Positions 46,641 to 62,009 are shown, counted from the first letter of the stretch. The stretch: 64,000 nt of DNA from Edaphobacter sp. (GCA_025462645.1 JAOAPB010000056.1:1-64000); one strand, 5' to 3'. Made by a program: numbers and translations. Notes: a model not told the origin generated them from the letters alone.

Positions 46641-49394
46641 ATGTTGACGATCTCCAAACCGCTCTCCGCGTCACAGGCGCAGACGTACCACGCCAAGGAG
46701 TTCACGTCTGCCGAACAGAATTATTGGAAGCAAGACGACCGGACCTTGGGCGAGTGGCATGGCAAGCTGGCTGAAAAGTTCGACCTCGCAGGAGCCGTGA
46801 GCGAGGAACACTTTGCGCGGCTTGCGGACGGCCAGCACCCTCATACCGCGGAGCAGCTTGTACGTCATCGCGTCGTCCAGGAGTACGAAGGCGCGGACGG
46901 GAAAACAGTCGCGCCGGTAGAACATCGTGCTGGTTGGGACGCCACATTCTCCGCGCCCAAGTCGGTTTCACTCACGGCGCTTGTTGGTGGGGATGACCGG
47001 GTGCGGGACGCGCACCGGGAAGCGGTGAACGTCGCCTTGAGCGAGCTGGAAAGGTACACGCAAGCCCGCATCGGCGGCAACCACGCCGCCGAAACTACCG
47101 GCGAGTTCATCGCCGCGAAGTTCGAGCATGACACAGCGCGCCCCGTGGATGGCTACGCCGCGCCGCAGCTTCACACCCACGCGGTCATCTTCAATGTCGC
47201 CGTGCGCGACAACGGACAGACGCGGGCCTTGCAGGAGCGCGGCCTGTTCGAGTCACAGCAGTTTGCCACTGCCGTATATCAATCGGAACTGACCTATCGC
47301 CTCCACAATCTCGGCTACGAGATTGAACCGGGACGCAGTGGCGCACCGGAGATCAAAGGCTACTCGCAGGAGTACCTTGATGCTTCCAGCCCCCGCAGTC
47401 AGCAGATACGCGAGCATCTGGAAAAGACCGGCTATCAGGGGCCGGAGGCCGCGCAGATCGCCGCGCACTCCACCCGCGACCGCAAGGAAATTTACTCACC
47501 CGCCGAGGTGCTGGTCGCCCACCGGCAGATCGCCGCCGCGTTCGGAAACCAAGCCGACAAAGTTGTGACGGACGCACGGAGGCGTAGTCAGGAATATACG
47601 CCCGAGCATGACCGGGAGAGTTCGCAGCAGGTGGCACGGCAGGCTGTCACCTATGCCCGCGACCGCAGCTTTGAGCGCGAGGCCGTCACCGACGAACGCG
47701 AGCTTTACCGCGATGCTTTGCGACGCGGTATGAGTGAAACAACGTACTCGGAAGTTCGCGCCGGGTTTGAGGCTCGCATTGCCGCAGGTGAGTTCCAGCT
47801 TGTGCCCAGACAGAAGCACGACTCAGGCCGGAGCTTCACGACCGCCGAAGCGATCCGTGCCGAGAAAGAAATCCTGCGCCGGATGCAACAGGGGCAAGGT
47901 GGCGCCGAGCAGATCATGTCCATACAAGCTGCCGTCGCCCATACCGAAAAGCAGCGGCATCTCAATGCCGGACAGCGGTCTGCCGCAGAGGAGATTCTAA
48001 CCTCGCGCGATGTCGTTCAAGGGCTGGAGGGACGGGCTGGTGTCGGAAAAACGACCCTTTTGAAATCGGTTCGTGAAGCAGCCGAACAACGCGGCTATGT
48101 CGTCGAAGGCTTCGCCCCGACATCCCGCGCCGCCAACCAGCTCCGCGACGCTGGTATCTCTGCCGACACCCTACAGGGTTTCCTCGTCCGTCGCGGACAG
48201 CCAAACCCCGACCGTCATCTTTACATGCTTGATGAATCCAGTCTTGCCAGCACGAAACAGGTCCGTGACTTCCTCTCCAAACTCGAATCCAGCGACCGCG
48301 TGTTGCTCATCGGGGACACCCGCCAGCATCAAGGAGTCGAAGCGGGCAAACCTTTCGAGCAGTTGGTCAACGCCGGGATGAAGACCACTCAGCTTGACCA
48401 GATCGTGCGTCAACGAGCAGCCCCGGAACTGCTTAAAGCGGTCGAGCATCTGTCGCGAGGCGAAGTCGCAGAGGGCGTCGCCCTGTTGGAACAACAGGGG
48501 CGCGTTACGGAGATTTCCGATCCTCAGCAGCGCATCGCGGCGATTGCTCGAAGCTACGCTGCCAACCCGGACAACACCATCGTCGTCTCGCCCGACAATG
48601 CCTCGCGCCGTCAGATCAATCAGGCCGTGCGTTCCGAATTGCAAGCCCTCGGCACAGTCGCCGCAGAAGATCATGCGATGCGCGTGCTCGCGCCGCGTTC
48701 CGATATGACCGGGGCCGACCGTACCTGGGCCGCTCGCTATGCCGTGAATGACGTACTCCACTATCCGCGTGGCAGTCAGGACATCGGCATTGAAAAGCAA
48801 AGCTATACGAAGGTCATTGCGACCCAACCCAAAGACAACCTGCTGACCGTTCAGAAAGAGGACGGAAAAACTGTCACCTACAACCCTGCGCGGTTATACG
48901 GCGTGACCGCCTACCGCGAGTTGGAACGGGAGTTTGCTGTTGGCGACCGTTTGAGCTTTACCGCGCCGTCCAAAGAGTTAGGCGTTGCCAACCGCGACCT
49001 TGGCACCGTGCAGCGCATCGACAAAGACGGCCAGCTCTCCGTGAAGATGGACAACGGTAAAGCGGTTAGCTTCGATGCCAACGAGATGCGGCACTTCGAT
49101 CACGGCTACGCGGTCACCAGCCATAGCTCTCAGGGCCTCACCGCCGAACGGGTGCTCGTCAACATCGACTCGAAGGTTCATCCCGAATTGATAAATAGCC
49201 GTTTCGCCTACGTTTCTGTCTCCCGCGCGTCCCACGATGCGCAGATTTATACCAATGACGCGACCTCACTTATATCGCGCCTCAGTCATGATGCGGCTAA
49301 ATCCTCCGCTATCGATGTTGGAATGCAAGCCCAGAGCACGCTGAGCACTGGCAAACGACAGTTCGATGATATCGGCGTTGAAGTTTCTCTCTGA
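46641..49394 (+). CDS. TrwC/TraI-like MobF relaxase-helicase
   Basis: 917 aa; LTISKPLSASQAQTYHAKEFTSAEQNYW, AGWDATFSAPKSVSLTALVGGD, PQLHTHAVIFNVAV, helicase Walker A LEGRAGVGKTTLLKSV. Confidence 0.95.
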   Translation: MLTISKPLSASQAQTYHAKEFTSAEQNYWKQDDRTLGEWHGKLAEKFDLAGAVSEEHFARLADGQHPHTAEQLVRHRVVQEYEGADGKTVAPVEHRAGWDATFSAPKSVSLTALVGGDDRVRDAHREAVNVALSELERYTQARIGGNHAAETTGEFIAAKFEHDTARPVDGYAAPQLHTHAVIFNVAVRDNGQTRALQERGLFESQQFATAVYQSELTYRLHNLGYEIEPGRSGAPEIKGYSQEYLDASSPRSQQIREHLEKTGYQGPEAAQIAAHSTRDRKEIYSPAEVLVAHRQIAAAFGNQADKVVTDARRRSQEYTPEHDRESSQQVARQAVTYARDRSFEREAVTDERELYRDALRRGMSETTYSEVRAGFEARIAAGEFQLVPRQKHDSGRSFTTAEAIRAEKEILRRMQQGQGGAEQIMSIQAAVAHTEKQRHLNAGQRSAAEEILTSRDVVQGLEGRAGVGKTTLLKSVREAAEQRGYVVEGFAPTSRAANQLRDAGISADTLQGFLVRRGQPNPDRHLYMLDESSLASTKQVRDFLSKLESSDRVLLIGDTRQHQGVEAGKPFEQLVNAGMKTTQLDQIVRQRAAPELLKAVEHLSRGEVAEGVALLEQQGRVTEISDPQQRIAAIARSYAANPDNTIVVSPDNASRRQINQAVRSELQALGTVAAEDHAMRVLAPRSDMTGADRTWAARYAVNDVLHYPRGSQDIGIEKQSYTKVIATQPKDNLLTVQKEDGKTVTYNPARLYGVTAYRELEREFAVGDRLSFTAPSKELGVANRDLGTVQRIDKDGQLSVKMDNGKAVSFDANEMRHFDHGYAVTSHSSQGLTAERVLVNIDSKVHPELINSRFAYVSVSRASHDAQIYTNDATSLISRLSHDAAKSSAIDVGMQAQSTLSTGKRQFDDIGVEVSL

Positions 49395-49442
49395 GGTCGG
49401 TGCGCACCGCCAAGTTTACGATTCCTATTGGCGGCCCATCCT

Positions 49443-49478
49443 GATATTCTCTGATACGAGCAGATACGTAGTGATACG
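49443..49478 (+). promoter_or_regulatory. 10-bp-phased GATACG repeats, candidate operator
   Basis: GATATT at 49443, GATACG at 49453, 49463 and 49473, ending 7 nt before an ATG. Confidence 0.55.
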
Positions 49479-49485
49479 GGTACGA

Positions 49486-49686
49486 ATGAGCAAGAAAACC
49501 TATAACCTTACTGAGGCAGCCGGAATGATCGGGATATCCCCGATCACTCTCAAGCGTTGGCTTTTGAACAAGAGGGTTGATGAGGTCGCGCGAGATCGCA
49601 ACAACTGGAGGTGCTTCTCCGAACAAGATATCGCCCGCATCAGGAACTTCGCTAATCGACTAGTCATTCCGGGAGAGAAACAATGA
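49486..49686 (+). CDS. MerR/excisionase-like HTH regulator
   Basis: MSKKTYNLTEAAGMIGISPITLKRWLLNKRVDEVARDRNNWRCFSEQDIARIRNFANRLV. Confidence 0.75.
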   Translation: MSKKTYNLTEAAGMIGISPITLKRWLLNKRVDEVARDRNNWRCFSEQDIARIRNFANRLVIPGEKQ

Positions 49687-51050
49687 CTAAGTCCAGCCAA
49701 GTCGAGGTTATGGATGCAATGTTGGCCTCGCCGCTACTTGATCCCAGATTGTTCAATCACTACCTCGGTGGACTACAGCAGCTTTTCTCACCGGCGAAGC
49801 CGGGCGCAGACGATACACGCTTTGCGGCATTTGTGGCGGCTTTAGACGGTCAGCCTAGCCGAGAATTGAGAAGAATCTACACTCTGCAGGATCTAAGGCA
49901 GACGGGGACGTACTTCACAGGCTCAGAATTGACCGCACGAGTTCTTGCCTCGGTATCCATCGAGATTCCTCTATTCGAGCGAATCGTTGACCCGAGTTGT
50001 GGTGCAGGCGATTTGCTCGTGGGCGCTGCTCGCCACCTGCCGCTCAGATCTTCCCTCATCGCTACTCTGAAACTATGGGGTCGATATCTCGTGGGGTTTG
50101 ACATCAGCTCTTCCTTCGTTGCGACCACTAGAGTTCGTTTGGCACTCCTCGCAATGCAGCGGCTAAATGTCGGAAGTGGTCCCGAGGTACTTTCGGAGCT
50201 TGAAATGCTCTTTCCGAACATACGCGTCCAGTCGGGCCTTGATGACTGGGGAGTTCCAGTGGGTAGATCTCTAATTCTCTCGAATCCACCGTTTTCTCAT
50301 ACGGAATCTCCCGCAAAATGTGTGTGGGCAAAAGGTCGTGTTTCACACGCGGCTGTATTCGTAATGAAGTGCCTAGACCAAGCGGGGCCGGAAGCCCGCC
50401 TGATAGCTATTCTTCCTGATGTACTCCGCACAGGTAGCCGTTATGAACGTTGGCGTAAGCAAGTCGAGAAGTCATCAAAAATCACATCAGTTGAAATCCT
50501 CGGGCGATTTGATAAGCAAACCGACATTGACGTGTTTTTTCTCGATGCCACAAAATCGCTAGAAGCAGGACAAGTAAGCACCTGGAGCCTACCAAAGCGG
50601 GCGGCAAACTCTATCGGAGATTTCTTCGAGATTAGGGTTGGGCCTGTCGTCGGGTTTCGTCTTATTGGAAAAGGCCCTTGGCATCCCTTCGTACACTCGT
50701 CAGAGCTGCCAGTTGGCAAAAAAGTTTCTACTTTTGGAAGCAGTATCCGTTTTCAAGGAAAGACCTACGAACCACCCTTTGTCGCTGTTCGTAGAACCTC
50801 CAAAGCCGAGTACAAAACTAGGTGTCTCGCGACACTTGTGACGGGTCAGATTCCCCTCGCAGTCGATGATCACTTGCTCATTGCACTTCCTAAGGATGGA
50901 ACAGTCTCAACATGCGCAGAGTTGCTCCGGGTTCTTGATGATGTGCGGACGACCGAATGGATGAACGCAAGGATAAGGTGCCGTCACATCACGGTCTCTG
51001 CGCTTCGCGATATCCCCTGGATCGGTGGTGAGCAAGATGAGCAAAGCTAA
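49683..51050 (+). CDS. N6-adenine-type DNA methyltransferase
   Basis: 455 aa; TGTYFTGSELTARVL, motif I DPSCGAGDLLVGAA, motif IV NPPF; ATGA overlap with HTH gene. Confidence 0.85.
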   Translation: MTKSSQVEVMDAMLASPLLDPRLFNHYLGGLQQLFSPAKPGADDTRFAAFVAALDGQPSRELRRIYTLQDLRQTGTYFTGSELTARVLASVSIEIPLFERIVDPSCGAGDLLVGAARHLPLRSSLIATLKLWGRYLVGFDISSSFVATTRVRLALLAMQRLNVGSGPEVLSELEMLFPNIRVQSGLDDWGVPVGRSLILSNPPFSHTESPAKCVWAKGRVSHAAVFVMKCLDQAGPEARLIAILPDVLRTGSRYERWRKQVEKSSKITSVEILGRFDKQTDIDVFFLDATKSLEAGQVSTWSLPKRAANSIGDFFEIRVGPVVGFRLIGKGPWHPFVHSSELPVGKKVSTFGSSIRFQGKTYEPPFVAVRRTSKAEYKTRCLATLVTGQIPLAVDDHLLIALPKDGTVSTCAELLRVLDDVRTTEWMNARIRCRHITVSALRDIPWIGGEQDEQS

Positions 51051-53103
51051 TTTTCGCTTCTCCACCGATATCCTCCGTAGGCTTGGCGAAGAACTAAATC
51101 CCAGCCTCGAACACGGAATACTGGAGCTCGCGAAAAATGCCTACGATGCGGATGCTACGGAGTTTGTTGTCACTTTAAATGGGAGCGACAAAATCGGCGG
51201 TACATTGAGTGTTACCGACAACGGTACGGGCATGACAGCCGACGCTATCCGAAACGGATGGCTTGTTATTGGACAGTCGCAAAAAGCCAAAATCAAGAAA
51301 ACGAAGGGGGGACGGATTCCGGCCGGTTATAAGGGGCTGGGCCGCCTCGCCGCGCTACGACTTGGCCAGAAGGTGAGCGTTGTCACAACGCCTCGGTCAA
51401 CACGTGGGACGCGCTACTCCCTCGCTGTTGATTGGGACGCATTCGATCACGCAAATCTTGTGGAAGATGTCCAGCTCGATATAAAGACCCTGTCCCCAGA
51501 GCTGAAACCAACCTTCGGTACAGTGATTCAGGTCGAGAACCTGCGCTCTTCTGTATCGCGAGCTGAATTGAGAAGATTGGCGCGTGAACTGATTTTGCTC
51601 GCCGATCCTTTTGAAGACCTCCCCAATTCGTTCAAGCCCATCTTGGTTGCGCCCGACTATGAAGAAATCGCTAAGCTAATCAGATCTCGCTACCTTGTCG
51701 ATGCCGATTATCATTTGGACGCCAAACTTGACTCCAAAGGTCATGCATCAGCGACGGTCCGTGATTGGAAAGGTAAGGTTCTCTTCAAAGCGACACACAC
51801 TCAAATCGCAGCTGAAAGACTAGGTAAACCATACCGCTGCCCCGCAGCGCAATTTGATTTTTGGAGCTTCATCCTGCGTAAGGAGTCTTTTCTCGAACGC
51901 ACCGCGAAACTTCAGGATGTGAGGACTTGGCTCGAAACTGTTGGCGGCGTACATTTCTACCAAAACCAGCTGCGTGTCAGCCCGTATGGCAACCCTGGAA
52001 ACGATTGGCTCGACATCAATCTCCGACGTTCGCAGAGTCCAGAAGAAAGACCGTCGACCAACAATTCAATCGGCCGAGTGGTGGTTCACGACGAAAACTT
52101 TCAGCTTGTTCAAAAGACTGATCGTTCCGGATTTATTGAAACCGGTCCGTTTCAAGAGCTCCGCGACTTCGCCAACGACGCGCTCGAATGGATGGCACGC
52201 GAGCGTATCAATGTGGCAAATAAGAGAAGGCAGAAGGAACGCGCTGCAGCGCCGCAGCAGGCAACACGCGTCAAAGAGCGGCTTGAACAGGCAATTAGTT
52301 CAACACCTCGGGGTTCTCAGAAAGCCATTCGACAGGCTCTGACTGCGTATGAAGCCCAAAATGAGCGAGTGGTTGACACCCTGCGAAAGGAAGTGCAACT
52401 TTATCGCACACTTAGCACTGCGGGCATCACCGCAGCTACTTTTGCGCATGAGTCGAGCGGTAATCCACTGAAAATTATCCATCAGGCCATTAATACCATT
52501 GAACGGCGAGGGCAGCAGCACCTTACATCCAAATACGAATCTTTGCTTGGCAAGCCAGTCTCAATGATTGTTCGATCGATTGGAACACTCGGAGTTCTGT
52601 CGCAGGCAACGCTCAGTCTTATTGACCACGATAAAAGGCGCGCCACCCGTGTGGATTTTAACCGAACCGTTAAGCAGACGGTTGAAACATTTTCTCCGTT
52701 CCTTGCCGGCAGGGACATCCTAGTCGATCTTGAGTTGTCGGGTGGAACTCCCTTGGTAAGGGGATCCGAGGCTGCGATTGAATCCCTTGTTGCCAATCTC
52801 CTCAACAACAGCGTTTCGGCCTTTGAATCGGCAGGTACGAGCAAGCGGCAATTACGGATAGAAACCATCACCTATGCGGACGACATTATGTTTACAGTTT
52901 CGGATAACGGCCCCGGGATCACTGGAATATCAGAGAAAGACATCTGGTCGCCCGGCATAACCACTCGCCCGCATGGAACGGGTCTTGGCCTCACCATCGT
53001 ACGAGATACTGTCACTGACCTCGGTGGCAGCGTTGCTGCTAAAAAGAAAGGCGAATTAGGCGGAGCTTCGATAATCATCCGGCTTCCACTGACTTCGAGG
53101 TAG
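51025..53103 (+). CDS. tandem GHKL ATPase: N-terminal MORC/Hsp90-like ATPase plus C-terminal histidine-kinase-like module
   Basis: N-GHKL: ELAKNAYDADAT / DNGTGM / YKGLGRLAALRLG. C-module: H-box-like TFAHESSGNPLKII, NLLNNSVSAFE, DNGPGI, GTGLGLTIV. Alternative start at 51037. Confidence 0.85.
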   Translation: MVSKMSKANFRFSTDILRRLGEELNPSLEHGILELAKNAYDADATEFVVTLNGSDKIGGTLSVTDNGTGMTADAIRNGWLVIGQSQKAKIKKTKGGRIPAGYKGLGRLAALRLGQKVSVVTTPRSTRGTRYSLAVDWDAFDHANLVEDVQLDIKTLSPELKPTFGTVIQVENLRSSVSRAELRRLARELILLADPFEDLPNSFKPILVAPDYEEIAKLIRSRYLVDADYHLDAKLDSKGHASATVRDWKGKVLFKATHTQIAAERLGKPYRCPAAQFDFWSFILRKESFLERTAKLQDVRTWLETVGGVHFYQNQLRVSPYGNPGNDWLDINLRRSQSPEERPSTNNSIGRVVVHDENFQLVQKTDRSGFIETGPFQELRDFANDALEWMARERINVANKRRQKERAAAPQQATRVKERLEQAISSTPRGSQKAIRQALTAYEAQNERVVDTLRKEVQLYRTLSTAGITAATFAHESSGNPLKIIHQAINTIERRGQQHLTSKYESLLGKPVSMIVRSIGTLGVLSQATLSLIDHDKRRATRVDFNRTVKQTVETFSPFLAGRDILVDLELSGGTPLVRGSEAAIESLVANLLNNSVSAFESAGTSKRQLRIETITYADDIMFTVSDNGPGITGISEKDIWSPGITTRPHGTGLGLTIVRDTVTDLGGSVAAKKKGELGGASIIIRLPLTSR

Positions 53104-53107
53104 ATTC

Positions 53108-53773
53108 ATGAGTGTTCAACTCGCAGACCGAACTATCAACCGCATCGCAATTATCGACGATCAAGCCGATGTGCGGGCGAGTTACGAATTCAATGTAGAG
53201 GACCTGGGACTTGAGTCAGTGCCCGAGACCGGGCCGTTAGATTCTCTTGTAAATATGGTGGCGGGAATGGCTGCAAAATCTGACGCTGCTATTTGCGACT
53301 ACAACCTTAAAGTGCGAGACTACTCCGCTTTCAATGGAGCAGAGCTGGTGGCAGCTCTCTACAAAACCTTATTCCCTGCGCTCCTCTGCACCAAATGGCA
53401 CACAGCAAGCATCGACGAAATGCGACCGTATCGTCGATACATTCCAACGCTTATCGATCCTAGCGACTTGGATCCTTCCACGATTAGCTCTGGACTAGAG
53501 GTCTGCATTCGGGAGTTCTCTGGAGAATTCCTTCCCATTCGCAAACCGTGGCGAGCATTGATCCGGGTCGAGGACGTTAGAGGCACACAAGGGGTCCCAT
53601 TCGTCTACGTAATCATTCCTTCTTGGAACACACAGGAAGTTGTTCGTCTTCCGAATGATGTGTTCCCGCCGGCGTTGATCCCTTCGCTTAAGCCCGGTGC
53701 TCGAATTCACGCGCGGGTCAATCTGGGGGCTGAAAATCACGAGCAATTATTTTTTGAGGAGTGGGAAGTATGA
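53108..53773 (+). CDS. response-regulator receiver-like protein with unknown C-terminal domain
   Basis: 221 aa; RIAIIDDQADVRASYEFNVEDLG acidic pocket, AAICDYNL phospho-Asp site, ALLCTKW. Confidence 0.75.
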   Translation: MSVQLADRTINRIAIIDDQADVRASYEFNVEDLGLESVPETGPLDSLVNMVAGMAAKSDAAICDYNLKVRDYSAFNGAELVAALYKTLFPALLCTKWHTASIDEMRPYRRYIPTLIDPSDLDPSTISSGLEVCIREFSGEFLPIRKPWRALIRVEDVRGTQGVPFVYVIIPSWNTQEVVRLPNDVFPPALIPSLKPGARIHARVNLGAENHEQLFFEEWEV

Positions 53774-54759
53774 GTACTCCTCTATCCGATCCGATTCTGA
53801 CGATTCTCGACGTAGGACATGGTAATTGCGCCATTCTCGAACACGGTCAACGTACAGTCGTCTTTGACTGCGGACCGAAAACGGGATTGCTCGAATATCT
53901 CACTTCCCGAGGGGTGCAAGTACTTGATCTCGTCCTTATCTCCCATGCAGACGAAGACCATATCGCAGGACTCATCGCAGTATTGGCCTCAGGCCTGTTC
54001 GAAGTGAAATGTGTTCGGCTGAATACGGATTCGCTGAAGGGTTCGGCAATCTGGGATGATCTTGCGGAAGAATTGAGTTTTCGGCAGCGAAATGGAGTCT
54101 TGGATTTCCGTCCCTCTCTAACCGATGCTGACAATGGAGCGTTCGATGCAGCTGGCATCAAAATCGAAATTCTCGGGCCGACTACATACCTTGCTACAAA
54201 GGGGCCGGGTAGTCAAGATTTCTACAATAGGAAGATCACCACGAACTCGATCAGTGCTGTGATTCGGCTCCATTTCAATGGAGTTCCAACCGTTCTCTTG
54301 GCGGGAGATATGGATAAGATCGCCCTGGACGAAGTAGAACGCGCGGGACGAGTGATGAATGCAATGAGCCTTATTTTTCCCCATCACGGAGGGCGTGCCG
54401 GTGGCAACATGACGTCGTTCTCTCAACAGCTTTTCGAACTCGTAACGCCGTCACAGGTATTCTTTTCGATAGGGAGAGGGCTTCATGGCACTCCACTACC
54501 TCAAGTGATTGCGCAGGCAAGAGCCCGGCAAGGTCTTTATGTCGCCTGTACGCAGCTATCGAAGCGCTGTGCTGCCGCCGATCTTAATGGCATTTCCCAG
54601 CACATTGGATCCGCATTCGCGACCGGACGAAACAGCAATTCCTGCTGCGCTGGGTCCGTCGTGATTGCACTGGCAAACGGCACCGTCACCGAACCGCAGC
54701 AGCAGGCACATCAGGACTTCATTACAGTCAACGCCCTCACAGCGCTGTGCCGAAACTAA
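53770..54759 (+). CDS. ComEC/Rec2-like metallo-beta-lactamase-fold hydrolase
   Basis: ILTILDVGHGNCAILEHGQRTVVFDCG, LISHADEDHIAGL, VLLAGDMD, FPHHGGRAGGN; ATGA overlap with upstream gene. Confidence 0.85.
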   Translation: MSTPLSDPILTILDVGHGNCAILEHGQRTVVFDCGPKTGLLEYLTSRGVQVLDLVLISHADEDHIAGLIAVLASGLFEVKCVRLNTDSLKGSAIWDDLAEELSFRQRNGVLDFRPSLTDADNGAFDAAGIKIEILGPTTYLATKGPGSQDFYNRKITTNSISAVIRLHFNGVPTVLLAGDMDKIALDEVERAGRVMNAMSLIFPHHGGRAGGNMTSFSQQLFELVTPSQVFFSIGRGLHGTPLPQVIAQARARQGLYVACTQLSKRCAAADLNGISQHIGSAFATGRNSNSCCAGSVVIALANGTVTEPQQQAHQDFITVNALTALCRN

Positions 54760-54762
54760 GCT

Positions 54763-55575
54763 ATGAGGACTACTCCTTTTTCGCGTCCCACAATTGTCGC
54801 CGCCGCAGAAGCGCTTGAAAGCTGCACACAAGGAGCTTTCGATCAAATCATATTACGGCTCACACTCGAACTAATCGTGCCCCTCGGGCCGCAACTCAGC
54901 GTTGCAAAAAAGTGCAGTAGCGTGGCGCGCGCAGTTCTTGCTCAACCAGCTTCGACGATTCAAACCCTCGACGGCCCGCAGACCCTCTCCGAATCTCTCA
55001 TACGGGAGGCTGTCGCAAAATGCTCGATGACAATGGAAAACCCCTTGGAAGCTCGACTTCGTAGGGGTCTAGGATTGGATGGCTTTGTCCCAGTCTGGGA
55101 TGAAAGAGACCGCAGACTGACTATTCGAGCGGCGCTTCCGGAATTGGTCGGCTTTATTGGGGTTGATGATGAGTTACATGAGCTTCTTCGGTCGTTCACA
55201 TTTATGATTCCCGAGGGACACCTCACGCAGGCGGTTGATGCTCACGCACGAGGCGATTGGGCAGCGGCTAACAGCCAAATCCGCACTTTTCTAGAAAGTC
55301 TGTTGGACGAGATTGCGATACGCTGGAATCTTGATCCAGCCGGAAGTCTGACCTCAGAAAACCGTCGTTCTGCCTTGGCAAACATTGGCTTTCTGTCACA
55401 CGCTAGAAACGAATGGTCCTCGGATGGAAAGAATTACATTAATGGACTGTTCAAAATGCTTCATACAGAAGGTTCGCATCCGGGGCTCTCTGACGAGGAT
55501 CATTGCACCTTCAGATTGCAAGTTGTTCTTATAACCTCGAGAATGATTCTTCGAAGATTCAAATTGCGACAATGA
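54763..55575 (+). CDS. Abi-like/all-helical C-terminal domain protein, candidate effector or accessory
   Basis: 270 aa; RTFLESLLDEIAIRWN...NYINGLFKMLHTEGSHPGLSDEDHCTFRLQVVLITSRMILRRF; 4 nt after previous stop. Confidence 0.6.
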   Translation: MRTTPFSRPTIVAAAEALESCTQGAFDQIILRLTLELIVPLGPQLSVAKKCSSVARAVLAQPASTIQTLDGPQTLSESLIREAVAKCSMTMENPLEARLRRGLGLDGFVPVWDERDRRLTIRAALPELVGFIGVDDELHELLRSFTFMIPEGHLTQAVDAHARGDWAAANSQIRTFLESLLDEIAIRWNLDPAGSLTSENRRSALANIGFLSHARNEWSSDGKNYINGLFKMLHTEGSHPGLSDEDHCTFRLQVVLITSRMILRRFKLRQ

Positions 55576-57277: not shown

Positions 57278-60200
57278 TCAATGGAAGTCATGCGATAGCA
57301 CCTCCACATCGCTGAGCGTCAGTACATGCACGGCTGACGCTCTCACATTGATAACGCCGTCTTGATTCTGGAGCGTGCCATCGACGCGGAGGAACTTTCC
57401 CCGCGTCACTGTAACGCGGTTCCGCTCATACAGCTGCGGATTGATGATGGCGTTCGAGATGCCCGTTTCATCTTCGAGGCTAAGGAAGATGAAGCCCTCG
57501 GCTGTACCCGGACGCTGCCGAGCAATCACCGCTCCCGCGATGCGGGCATAGGTTCCGTCCGGCATCCCGCGGAGGCTTGCGGCCGGCAGCACACCGGCGG
57601 CATTCATCTCTGCCCGGTGATATGCCATTGGGTGCGGACCAAGCGTCACCCCGGTACTGTCAAAATCAGCAACCAACCGCTCTTCGGTTGTCATAGGCCG
57701 CAATGGAGCGGCAGCTTCTAGTTCATGTTCGTCCGAAACGTGCTCGAAGAGCGGCCCAGCGGACTGTCCCGCACGCTCCGCGTGCCATAAAGCGGTGCGT
57801 CGGTGATGCTTCTCTCCAGTCCAGTTGAACGTTCCAGCTTTCGCCAAAAGCGTTAGTTCCGCCTTTTTGATCGACGAGACACGGCGGCGAAGATCGTACT
57901 CCGAGGCGAACGGACCATCCATCACGCGAGCGTCGGTAATGGCGTCCGCTACTCTCTGCCGCAATCCCTTCGCATACTTCATCCCCATGCGGACGGCATA
58001 GCGACCGGCATATCTTACGCGATCATGCTCGCTTAGCTCTTCAAGTGTGCAGAACCAATCAGACCGCTGTACGTCAATAGGCACGATCTTGACGCGGTGC
58101 CGCTTTGCATCATTCGCTATTGTGAACGGCGAGTAGAAGCCCATCGGCTGGTTATTGAAGAGGGCACAGGTATACGCCGCTGGATAATGCAAGCGCGTGT
58201 AGGCGCTGGAGTATGCGATGGAAGCGAAGCTGTGCGCGTGGGACTCAGGAAACATAAACTCCTTCACAGTCGCGAGTACGCGCATCACCTCCTCCTGTGC
58301 AGCAGCATCGAATCCGTTTGCCGTCATGCCTTCATGCAGCCGTGTCTTCAGTCCAGCAATGATCGACTCCGAGCGTTTGCCGCCCATTGCCTTGCGCAAC
58401 TCCTCGGCTTCGCCCCCTGTGAGGTTCGCGGCCACCATGCCAATCTTCATCACCTGTTCCTGAAACAGAGGCACGCCGAGCGTTCGTTCCAGAAACGGCT
58501 TGAACGATGGATGAAGATAGGTAACGGGCTCTCTTCCAAGTCTGCGTGCGATGTATGGATTGACGAACTTTCCGGTCACCGGGCCAGGGCGGATGATGGC
58601 AACCTGCATCGACAGATCAGCAAAGCATTTCGGCTTGGTCCGTGGCAGAGCAGACATCTGAGCACGGCTCTCAATCTGAAACAAACCAACAGTATCGGCC
58701 TGCTGAATACTCTCGTACACGGCATCATCCTGCGGAAGCTGCGCGTAGTCGAGCTGTTCGCCGTAATACTGCGGGACGAGGTAGGCCGCATCCTTGAGCA
58801 CGGCGAGCATCCCAAGCCCGAGAAGATCCACCTTAATGATGCCCATATCCGAGCAGTCATCTTTATCCCACTGCACGACCGTTCGGCCTGGCATCGTAGC
58901 GCGTTCAATCGGCACGACCGAATCAAGATGCCCTTGGCAGATGACCATGCCCCCTGAATGCTGACCGAGGTTGCGGGGAAGGCGCAACACGTCGCCGCAC
59001 TTCTGTAGGTAGTGAACAATTCGGCGATGCTTCATATCGAGGCCCGCCGCCTTGAAGCTGTTTTCGAGCGTATCGCTTGGAGCCTTCCATTCCCATGCGC
59101 TCATGAGGCCGGCGAGCTTCGCCGCCGTCTCTTGATCGAAACCAAGAGCCTTGCCGACTTCCCGCGAGGCTGACCGACTACGAAAGGTGATGACGTTCGC
59201 TGTCATGGCGGCGCCCAACTCGCCGTAACGCTGGTAGACATACTGAATCGCACGCTCGCGAGCGGTTTTGCTAGGCAGGTCGAGGTCGATGTCCGGCCAC
59301 TCACCACGCTCTTCCGAAAGGAATCGCTCAAAGAGCAAGTCCAGTCCTACCGAATCGACGATGGTGATTTCGAGCGCGTAGCAGACAACGCTATTCGCCG
59401 CCGAACCACGGCCTTGAATGAGAATCCCATTGTCCTTGCAGAAGCAGACTACGTCCCACACGATAAGAAAGTACCCTGCCAACCCTAGTTTTTCGATAAG
59501 CCGCAGCTCGCGTTCCGCTTGCCGCTTGGCTTTCTCGTAAAGCGCCGGATCGTTCTTGGGAAGATAGCGGCGACGCATCCCTTCATCCACGCGCTTGCGG
59601 AGAAACGAATCCATCGTCTCTCCATCGGGCACGGGATAGGCCGGGAACTCGTATCCGAGTCCCGTCATCTGAAATTGCAGGCGGTCTGACAGTTCGCGAG
59701 TGTTGGCAATGGCCTCGGGATAGTCGTAGAAAAGCCGGTGCATCTCTACTGCTGTGTGCAAGTGCCGCTCTGCATTGCGGCTCAGGAGACGCCCAGCCGT
59801 ATCGAGGGTCTTGCGGTGGCGGATGCACGTAAAGATGTCGAGGACTTCGCGCTCATACGGAGTGCTATAACTGACGCCGCCCGTTGCCAGGAGCGGCAGG
59901 TTCAGCGAACGCGCAATACGAATCGCCGCACGGTTGCGATGTTCTTCTTCGCGGTCGAAGTGGCGCTGCAGTTCCACGTAGACATTGCTAGAACCGAAAA
60001 GATGCACCAATTTCTCTACGGCTTTGTGTGCGGCATCATAACCGCCCCGAGCCAATGCCGCAGCGAGCGGGCCTTCGATGCCACCCGTCAGGCAGACCAG
60101 CCCCCTGCTGTACTCTTCCACGTCCGCAACAACCGCCGCGCCTTCGGCCTTGGTTGTCTCGCGTAGCTTGAACTGCGTAAGTAACCGGGAAAGATTCTGG

Positions 60201-60511
60201 TAGCCAAGGCGTGACTCAGCCAACAGCGGCAAGCGTACAGGTTCAGCAGGAAGCTGATGGGGTAGATACGGGGCAGGTTGAAGGCGTTGGCCCAGGTCGC
60301 TTACCGCAACCTCCGCGCCGATGTGCGCTCGCACCCCGCACCGTGCTCCTTCCATATGAAAGCGCGCTGTGCCGTAGAGACCGTTGCGGTCGAGCAGCGC
60401 CATCGCCGGCATCTCCAGATGCGCGGCCTGCTGCATCAGGAACTCCGGCATGGTGGCACCTTCGAGGAAGCTGAAAGCCGACCGCGCGTGCAGTTCCACG
60501 TAGTCAGTCAT
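57278..60511 (-). CDS. dnaE2: error-prone DNA polymerase III alpha subunit
   Basis: MTDYVELHARSAFSFLEGATMPEFLMQQAA (PHP), ILIQGRGSAANSVVCYALEIT, EWPDIDLDLPS, FPESHAHSFASIAYSSAYTRLHYPAAYTCALFNNQPMGFYSP. Confidence 0.95.
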   Translation of the reverse strand: MTDYVELHARSAFSFLEGATMPEFLMQQAAHLEMPAMALLDRNGLYGTARFHMEGARCGVRAHIGAEVAVSDLGQRLQPAPYLPHQLPAEPVRLPLLAESRLGYQNLSRLLTQFKLRETTKAEGAAVVADVEEYSRGLVCLTGGIEGPLAAALARGGYDAAHKAVEKLVHLFGSSNVYVELQRHFDREEEHRNRAAIRIARSLNLPLLATGGVSYSTPYEREVLDIFTCIRHRKTLDTAGRLLSRNAERHLHTAVEMHRLFYDYPEAIANTRELSDRLQFQMTGLGYEFPAYPVPDGETMDSFLRKRVDEGMRRRYLPKNDPALYEKAKRQAERELRLIEKLGLAGYFLIVWDVVCFCKDNGILIQGRGSAANSVVCYALEITIVDSVGLDLLFERFLSEERGEWPDIDLDLPSKTARERAIQYVYQRYGELGAAMTANVITFRSRSASREVGKALGFDQETAAKLAGLMSAWEWKAPSDTLENSFKAAGLDMKHRRIVHYLQKCGDVLRLPRNLGQHSGGMVICQGHLDSVVPIERATMPGRTVVQWDKDDCSDMGIIKVDLLGLGMLAVLKDAAYLVPQYYGEQLDYAQLPQDDAVYESIQQADTVGLFQIESRAQMSALPRTKPKCFADLSMQVAIIRPGPVTGKFVNPYIARRLGREPVTYLHPSFKPFLERTLGVPLFQEQVMKIGMVAANLTGGEAEELRKAMGGKRSESIIAGLKTRLHEGMTANGFDAAAQEEVMRVLATVKEFMFPESHAHSFASIAYSSAYTRLHYPAAYTCALFNNQPMGFYSPFTIANDAKRHRVKIVPIDVQRSDWFCTLEELSEHDRVRYAGRYAVRMGMKYAKGLRQRVADAITDARVMDGPFASEYDLRRRVSSIKKAELTLLAKAGTFNWTGEKHHRRTALWHAERAGQSAGPLFEHVSDEHELEAAAPLRPMTTEERLVADFDSTGVTLGPHPMAYHRAEMNAAGVLPAASLRGMPDGTYARIAGAVIARQRPGTAEGFIFLSLEDETGISNAIINPQLYERNRVTVTRGKFLRVDGTLQNQDGVINVRASAVHVLTLSDVEVLSHDFH

Positions 60512-62009
60512 AAGTTCCCTGCACATACCAGCATCGGGAGCACGGATCGAAGGCGATGCGACAGAGCCGTTCTACAGTGCCGTTTTCCAACCGGACATCC
60601 CACTCTTCGCGGCACCAGTTGGCCTCCGACCACCACTGCCCGCTCACGCGTACCGGACCAGCAGCATCGCGCACAGCATAGGCCGCTCCGTCCCAGAACA
60701 GCCGCACAGGTATATGGTTTGCGAGTGCAACGCCGACCATATGCGGCGGACGCGAGACGCGCAAAGCCACAGGCGTCGAGAGTGACCGCTTCTCGCTTCG
60801 ACGTGGTGGCGGCGGCTCGAATGGAACCATGCGAAAAGCGTTCGGTCGATGATCGTCGGTCAGTTCTGGTGAGCCGACACGTTGCTCTCCCAAGAGCTTC
60901 CGCATTCGAGCCAACATCACTTCGAGCTGTCCCGGCTCTGGCGCTTGCGGGAGGAAGAGACCATGCTGCGCTCGATACGGCGCGGCTGACTGCGCGTGAA
61001 GTTCTAAACCCACAATCCCCGCACTCGGAGGATGCGTCTCCAGATCGAGTTGAATGAGCTTGAGCAGTGTCGCCGTATCCTGCAACGGCAGCGCAGGACG
61101 AACGGTGCGCTCATGCTGAGCGCCGCCCTCGAGCCGGAGTACAACCCGGAGCGCGGCGATGGCCCGTGCTTTCCCGCGAACCCGCTCCAACAACGTCGTC
61201 GTCATGCGGGAGAGCAGAAACAGCAGACGCTCCAGCTCCTCTACTGGAAAGTCCAGCTCCATGCGCTCCACTAGACCGGCCTCAAAGCTTGGTTCTATCG
61301 GGAACATCAGGTGAGGCCACGCGCCACGCGCGAGCGAATGCAGCTTCTTTCCAACCTGCCCGAGACGTGCAATGACATTGTTTTCAGCCAAGGCGGCCAG
61401 TTCCGCACAGGTGCGAATACCCCAGGCTGCAAAGGTCGCCTCATGCTCCGGCGCAAGGTCCAGCGCTGTGACCGGAAGCTGACCGATCGCGTGTGCCTCG
61501 CAACCGGACGGCACAACGGAGACGCCAGTTCTGCCACATGCAAGAGACACCGCAGCGTGGAAGTTTTCCGCGACGGCGATGTTCACGAGAAAGCCCACCG
61601 CCATCACACTCCGGCGCAATTTGTTAGCGAGCTGCCCGGCGTCGCCGTACAGAAGATCCATTCCGCGAATGTCCAGAGCATACGTGCCGGGGTGCTCTTC
61701 CACCGACTCGATGCGAGGCGAGAACATGCACGCGACAGAGTGAAGCATGGCATAGGCCGTATGCTCGTGCTCGATAACACGACGGAGCGCGACGACCTCC
61801 GAGAATGCTTCGGCCTGTAGCCGAGTCATACCGATCTCGACCCCCTGAGAACGCGCTGCATTGTTCGCCGCAAAAACCATCTCTGTTGGCGGCTCTCCAT
61901 CAAGCACTACAAACGGCCTCTTCCGCAACTCCGGGCGCTGGTGCGCCGCGGCCTGTGCGAAGAAGTTCGATGGATGGAGAACGGCGTACACTACCGCACC
62001 CTCGCCCAA
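60504..62009 (-). CDS. imuB: ImuB-like Y-family polymerase homologue
   Basis: 501 aa; EIGMTRLQAEAF, SPRIESVEEHPGTYALDIRGMDLLYGD, TFAAWGIRTCAELAAL; next to dnaE2 and imuA. Confidence 0.88.
   Translation of the reverse strand: MGEGAVVYAVLHPSNFFAQAAAHQRPELRKRPFVVLDGEPPTEMVFAANNAARSQGVEIGMTRLQAEAFSEVVALRRVIEHEHTAYAMLHSVACMFSPRIESVEEHPGTYALDIRGMDLLYGDAGQLANKLRRSVMAVGFLVNIAVAENFHAAVSLACGRTGVSVVPSGCEAHAIGQLPVTALDLAPEHEATFAAWGIRTCAELAALAENNVIARLGQVGKKLHSLARGAWPHLMFPIEPSFEAGLVERMELDFPVEELERLLFLLSRMTTTLLERVRGKARAIAALRVVLRLEGGAQHERTVRPALPLQDTATLLKLIQLDLETHPPSAGIVGLELHAQSAAPYRAQHGLFLPQAPEPGQLEVMLARMRKLLGEQRVGSPELTDDHRPNAFRMVPFEPPPPRRSEKRSLSTPVALRVSRPPHMVGVALANHIPVRLFWDGAAYAVRDAAGPVRVSGQWWSEANWCREEWDVRLENGTVERLCRIAFDPCSRCWYVQGTYD

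Follow-up and report, generated by a model that had tools for sequence, protein, structure and literature searches.

A dual-GHKL sensor kinase of Edaphobacter sp. and its candidate two-component restriction-type defence cassette

Genes of the cassette and their surroundings

The DNA considered here is a 64,000-nucleotide stretch of Edaphobacter sp. (GCA_025462645.1, JAOAPB010000056.1:1-64000), hereafter the window. On its plus strand lies a gene for a sensor kinase with two GHKL ATPase modules (51025..53103), and together with two genes upstream and three downstream, all on the same strand, it probably forms one operon. The first of these six genes (49366..49686) encodes a MerR-type HTH protein of 106 amino acids (Pfam MerR_1, 1.4e-4), and its stop overlaps the start of the next gene. 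It is an accessory, since no relative that was checked has a match to it except the nearest (8.4e-22). The second gene (49683..51050) encodes an N6-adenine-type DNA methyltransferase of 455 amino acids (Pfam N6_Mtase, 1.1e-4), in which the DP..CG and NPP motifs are kept; D103-P104, G107 and N201-P202-P203 are invariant in 28 homologues. The methyltransferase and the HTH protein bear a weak similarity to those of the MADS defence system, but membership in that system was rejected, as the MAD2 equivalog model scores far below its cut-off. The kinase gene follows as an open reading frame that encodes 692 residues. Its true start is probably the ATG at 51037 (MSKANFRF) and not the GTG at 51025, because the homologues begin near residue 5, and the gene still overlaps the methyltransferase stop with this start.

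Downstream of the kinase, the gene at 53108..53773 encodes a protein of 221 amino acids that is assigned to the receivers by its conserved acidic residues and its predicted structure. In an alignment of 43 receivers, D18 and D64 are present in all of them (43/43), while D17 and T/S95 are each present in 42/43. The structure model has a pLDDT of 95, and Foldseek matches it to receiver domains with E-values down to 4.5e-6. The conserved Lys of strand beta5 is not found in this alignment, where columns 114-118 vary, and the C-terminal 75 residues make up a small beta-rich domain for which no relative was found. The protein is a plausible but atypical phospho-acceptor.

The next gene (53761..54759, with a probable start ATG at 53770 that gives an ATGA overlap with the receiver stop) encodes a ComEC-type hydrolase of the metallo-beta-lactamase (MBL) fold, which is the predicted nuclease effector. 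Its closest solved relatives are the ComEC MBL domains in PDB (profile search, E 2.8e-19), and the metal-ligand motifs SHADxDH, D183 and PHHGG are conserved. It differs from ComEC in being soluble and stand-alone, without the membrane channel, and in having an extra C-terminal part with four invariant Cys residues (263, 270, 296 and 330) beyond the usual metal ligands, which perhaps form a second metal site.

The last gene (54763..55575) encodes a protein of 270 amino acids with no known domain, and is absent from the other cassettes. Its homologues on plasmids, with 52-54% identity, end other toxin- or defence-like operons. For example, the homologue in Bradyrhizobium (L106) directly follows an AbiEii toxin/DUF6088 pair, and that in Xanthomonas (L107) lies one gene after a HEPN/Toprim-associated gene. 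It is possible that this gene is an accessory shared by toxin and defence operons.

The cassette sits on a conjugative element, just downstream of genes for VirB4-, TrbI-, VirB6- and VirB8-type proteins, an ATPase, a TrwB-type coupling protein and a TrwC relaxase. Nearly identical plasmid DNA was not found, and phage records gave two weak matches only. Beside the cassette, and likewise on the conjugative element, the minus strand (57278-62009) carries a gene for an error-prone DNA polymerase of the DnaE2 type and another that resembles DNA polymerase IV/ImuB. When 109 flanking ORFs were compared with PADLOC (E<=1e-20), few matches were obtained, namely PDC-S01, PDC-S28, a CBASS-type cyclase, DrmMI, and type II and IIG enzymes; this result is given little weight since no control set was used. 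Many of the flanking genes belong to ordinary metabolism.

Domains, conservation and predicted fold of the kinase

The first-pass annotation had claimed, from motifs alone, that one protein carries an N-terminal Hsp90/MORC-like and a C-terminal histidine-kinase-like ATPase module. Each of the motifs it quoted was found in place in ORF 51025-53103, and Pfam finds two separate and intact GHKL modules, HATPase_c_3 at residues 28-153 (E 1.7e-19) and HATPase_c at residues 582-690 (E 1.7e-23), both far above their cut-offs. Both domains are present in 69/69 aligned relatives. From the N- to the C-terminus, the protein can be divided into the MORC/MutL-like GHKL ATPase module (51106..51483), an S5-like middle domain bearing the QKTDRxGF arm (51433..52140, about residues 137-372), a helical stalk with the DHp domain (52144..52620, about residues 374-532) in which the codon of the putative phospho-acceptor His475 occupies 52447-52449, and the histidine-kinase catalytic domain (52645..53094, about residues 541-690), all on the plus strand.

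The active sites were compared in a set of 42 close relatives with 38-55% identity, and in a wider alignment of 69 sequences that includes relatives at 22-27% identity. In the first ATPase, E34, N38, D41, D65, G67, G69 and the run K103-G104-L105-G106-R107 are invariant in 42/42 close relatives. In the second ATPase, the same is true of N591, N595, D627, G631 and G651-x-G653-x-G655. H475 occurs in 42/42 of them and is followed in all by an acidic residue (E/D476); in many of them the H-box is one residue longer than HExxxP. The QKTDRxGF arm of the middle domain is almost unchanged, with K364 near-invariant and R367 invariant, and is reminiscent of the QTK loop in ATPases of the gyrase type. Even in the 69-sequence alignment, E34, N38, D65, K103, R367, H475, N591 and N595 remain invariant. 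Such invariance indicates that both modules are under strong selection as active sites. The protein thus has the sequence hallmarks of a HisKA-type kinase, that is, the acidic residue after the DHp His and the N, G1 and G2 boxes of the CA domain, as well as those of MORC/paraMORC-like ATPases, that is, a GHKL domain with the catalytic Glu (E34) and Asn (N38) followed by an S5 domain.

The AlphaFold2 model, which was built from a 61-sequence alignment and has a mean pLDDT of 85 and a pTM of 0.73, displays a GHKL fold, the S5-like middle domain, long helices at about 374-532 that bear the His, and a second GHKL fold. Foldseek against PDB matches the N-terminal half to the ATPase-S5 unit of MORC2, MORC3 and SMCHD1 (E about 1e-11), and also to Hsp90-type proteins; the alignment with MORC3 ATPase-S5 spans 461-464 columns with a target TM of 0.54-0.55. 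The C-terminal half is matched to the kinase cores of CpxA, ZraS and similar proteins (E about 1e-12), and a profile search agrees on its kinase identity. Therefore, structure prediction yields two folded GHKL domains and not one, and the His is invariant in every relative examined, as the original claim demanded. The protein is best described as a complete HisKA-type kinase (C-terminal half) preceded by a MORC-like GHKL-S5 ATPase (N-terminal half). A chance reading of motifs is ruled out by the E-values, the conservation and the predicted structure.

Distribution of the cassette and comparison with known systems

The kinase, receiver and MBL genes lie side by side in almost all of 45 close loci, overlapping or separated by a few bases, and follow each other as in the window, with a receiver of about 220 residues before the MBL-fold protein. 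The nearest relative (L108), whose kinase is 65% identical, has the order HTH-methyltransferase-kinase-receiver-MBL. The cassette has been found in nine phyla (Pseudomonadota, Bacteroidota, Rhodothermota, Chloroflexota, Planctomycetota, Acidobacteriota, Actinomycetota, Armatimonadota and Cyanobacteriota), and it is rare in the class of the window (4/399 genomes) and in its genus (1/59). The distance matrices of the kinase, receiver and MBL proteins correlate with r of 0.92-0.93, and those of the methyltransferase correlate with these three with r of 0.62-0.73; values as high as these never arose in 500 permutations. The r values carry no correction for shared descent.

An N6-type methyltransferase adjoins the trio in most loci outside the cyanobacteria, even where the two are oppositely oriented, as in the divergent Streptomyces-type loci (L046, L050 and L053). 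The adjacent methyltransferase with intact motifs that marks a type II restriction-modification (R-M) system is present in the window and absent in the cyanobacterial loci (L034-L039, L041, L045, L047, L055, L056 and L059), several of which adjoin housekeeping genes; in L040 and L051, too, the trio has no methyltransferase beside it. Therefore, the trio can exist without R-M, and self-marking by methylation cannot be essential everywhere. Some copies are probably broken. The MBL gene on a Pseudanabaena plasmid (L015:10821-12774) is interrupted by an IS982 transposase, the methyltransferase and MBL frames are split in L104/L110, and the kinase frame is split in L057.

The kinase tree falls into three sets: a clade with MBL genes (support 100), a clade with HNH genes (support 82), and a set in which the downstream receiver-like genes are longer, with 340-500 residues. 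In the HNH clade the order is kinase-receiver-HNH endonuclease, so that the receiver is kept and the endonuclease (PF01844, E 1.3e-9 and 3.8e-10) takes the slot of the MBL gene. Such sister cassettes occur at L062, L063, L065, L067, L069, L070, L079, L090, L096, L097, L100 and L019, and in several HNH loci a methyltransferase of the MBL-cassette family is close by. The clearest hint so far at an effector nuclease role of the MBL protein comes from the occurrence of either MBL or HNH in one slot; nuclease action is suggested by this exchange together with the relationship to ComEC.

The architecture of the kinase is partly described. Soluble proteins with two HATPase domains and a histidine-kinase-like DHp (HEF_HK) have been reported, next to a receiver-like protein (Response_reg_2) and R-M genes, among which C5-cytosine methylases predominate (Bellieny-Rabelo et al., 2021; PMC8011034). 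The presence of two GHKL modules in one histidine kinase was therefore already known. The window resembles this system in having HATPase_c_3 and a C-terminal DHp/HATPase_c beside a receiver-like gene in an R-M neighbourhood, but differs from it in its short receiver (about 220 aa), in a separate ComEC-like MBL effector, in an N6-adenine-type methyltransferase instead of a C5-cytosine one, and in a distinct kinase clade; MBL proteins are unmentioned in that paper. The HEF_HK model (PF19191) has no match in the window protein and only one weak match among 69 aligned relatives, while it does match another genome of the same genus (E 1.6e-28). That genuine HEF_HK protein aligns to the profile of the window-clade kinases over the middle and kinase parts (E 1.4e-37), and a remote kinship of the two groups is clear at the sequence level. 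Response_reg_2 (PF19192), a model for which no positive control gave a match, matches nothing in the genome of the window and is absent from the families matched by the 43 receivers. Membership in HEF_HK/Response_reg_2 was thus rejected on the Pfam searches. The window kinase forms a separate branch, and it is the cassette that adds to the published picture.

Other known systems share parts of the cassette. MORC and paraMORC ATPases have been placed in R-M operons (Iyer, Abhiman and Aravind, 2008; PMC2292703), and like them the window protein has an N-terminal GHKL-S5 ATPase in an R-M-like operon. However, its C-terminus is a whole histidine kinase with a receiver gene next to it, whereas theirs is a nuclease, a TIR domain or an unknown extension. 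The restriction enzymes BbrUII/HgiDII (NCBIfam NF050001) have a related N-terminal GHKL ATPase, which matches residues 13-193 with 71.8 bits (E 4.3e-20), but the family cut-off of 550 bits is far above this score, and the match is confined to the initial part of the model, which has 659 positions. Detocs is a two-component phage defence in which a sensor kinase and receiver proteins gate a toxic effector. Its input domain and effectors are different. In the present cassettes the receiver is a protein distinct from the effector, and a methyltransferase gene usually accompanies them. PADLOC (2023) and NCBIfam (June 2026) contain no model that names the present system, and no named system with this gene set was met in the literature searched, which covered few subscription papers or preprints.

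A putative two-component restriction-type defence and its alternatives

Based on the above results, we suggest, with a probability of about 0.5, that a mobile two-component defence of the restriction type is encoded here, as a cassette with the order (adenine methyltransferase)-kinase-receiver-nuclease, and that the protein serves as its sensor kinase. The methyltransferase would mark self DNA, and the MORC-like head, that is, the GHKL ATPase with S5, would dimerise on ATP and clamp foreign DNA or a phage structure. Closure of the head would be transmitted through the helical stalk to the DHp/CA kinase, so that His475 would become phosphorylated and pass its phosphate on to Asp64 in the receiver encoded next to the kinase. 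In this phosphorylated state the receiver would bind and release the MBL nuclease, which would cut the invading DNA or kill the cell. The first-pass annotation had already proposed that engagement of DNA or protein could be coupled to phosphotransfer, and this step is an inference here too. Sequences and predicted models show the domains, the invariant catalytic residues, the conserved gene order, the linked gene history and the MBL/HNH exchange. The defence reading is supported by the invariance of both ATPase sites and of His475, the MORC and kinase folds of the model, the acid triad D17/D18/D64 of the receiver, the ComEC-like MBL protein with its conserved metal ligands, the contiguous and co-inherited trio, the HNH gene that fills the MBL slot in the sister clade, the resemblance of the head to the BbrUII/HgiDII ATPase, the patchy occurrence and the adjoining conjugation genes. 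A simple R-M version is disfavoured, since the cyanobacterial cassettes are without the methyltransferase and the receiver is without the usual Lys. Somewhat more tentatively, at less than even odds, the cassette may represent an unnamed immune class of "two-component restriction", in which one protein tells self from non-self with a MORC-like DNA clamp, another acts as the nuclease, and a His-Asp phosphorelay connects the two, with MBL and HNH as exchangeable effectors.

The main rival is abortive-infection signalling of a Detocs-like kind, which we regard as unlikely but worth serious attention. Here the MORC head would sense a phage product, the MBL protein would attack the nucleic acid or nucleotide pool of the cell, and the methyltransferase would be separate or a regulatory passenger. 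It agrees with the fact that kinase, receiver and MBL form the invariant core while the methyltransferase can be missing and follows their inheritance less closely, and MBL proteins recur in other defence systems, with weak matches to LmuA, RTasMBL and Avs1a. However, the methyltransferase adjoins across most phyla, even in divergent orientation, and a DNA endonuclease stands in the MBL slot of the sister clade, both of which speak against this rival. It is more improbable still that the cassette serves regulated signalling in DNA stress or housekeeping and not immunity, with a kinase that senses unusual DNA and an MBL protein that processes the DNA of the cell itself. The cyanobacterial trios, which stand alone and in several cases beside housekeeping genes, and the ordinary metabolism among many flanking genes would fit such a role, but the patchy distribution with spread across phyla, the carriage on plasmids and conjugative elements and the link to methyltransferases would not.

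The two remaining alternatives concern the relay itself and its novelty. The phosphorelay could be vestigial, with the kinase half acting only as another ATP-dependent dimer switch, which would control the nuclease by contacting the receiver, as the missing Lys of the receiver and the longer H-box of many close relatives might suggest. We consider this very improbable, because drift would be expected if phosphotransfer had been lost, whereas His475, Asn591/595 and the receiver residues Asp18/Asp64 are invariant over great divergence. Finally, the idea that the protein just adds one more member to the published HEF_HK/Response_reg_2 system has hardly any credibility left. The broad architecture and the R-M neighbourhood are alike (PMC8011034), and so is the sequence to the extent of the profile alignment given above, but the results for both Pfam models and the fully supported MBL branch of the kinase tree, with an effector that the published system lacks mention of, argue against it.

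The dual-GHKL kinase is thus a real and well conserved feature, and a variant of a partly described architecture. MORC-type ATPases link the state of DNA to an output in animals, plants and bacteria, and the signal of their ATPase cycle is poorly understood. Here the MORC output is wired to a histidine kinase, and activity can be read as phosphate on one His and one Asp. Bench work on it is worthwhile, since a few point mutants would suffice to probe the relay. If the mechanism proposed above is true, the toolkits of two-component signalling and restriction-modification would be joined in one small cassette, and a simple assay would be available for what a MORC clamp recognises.
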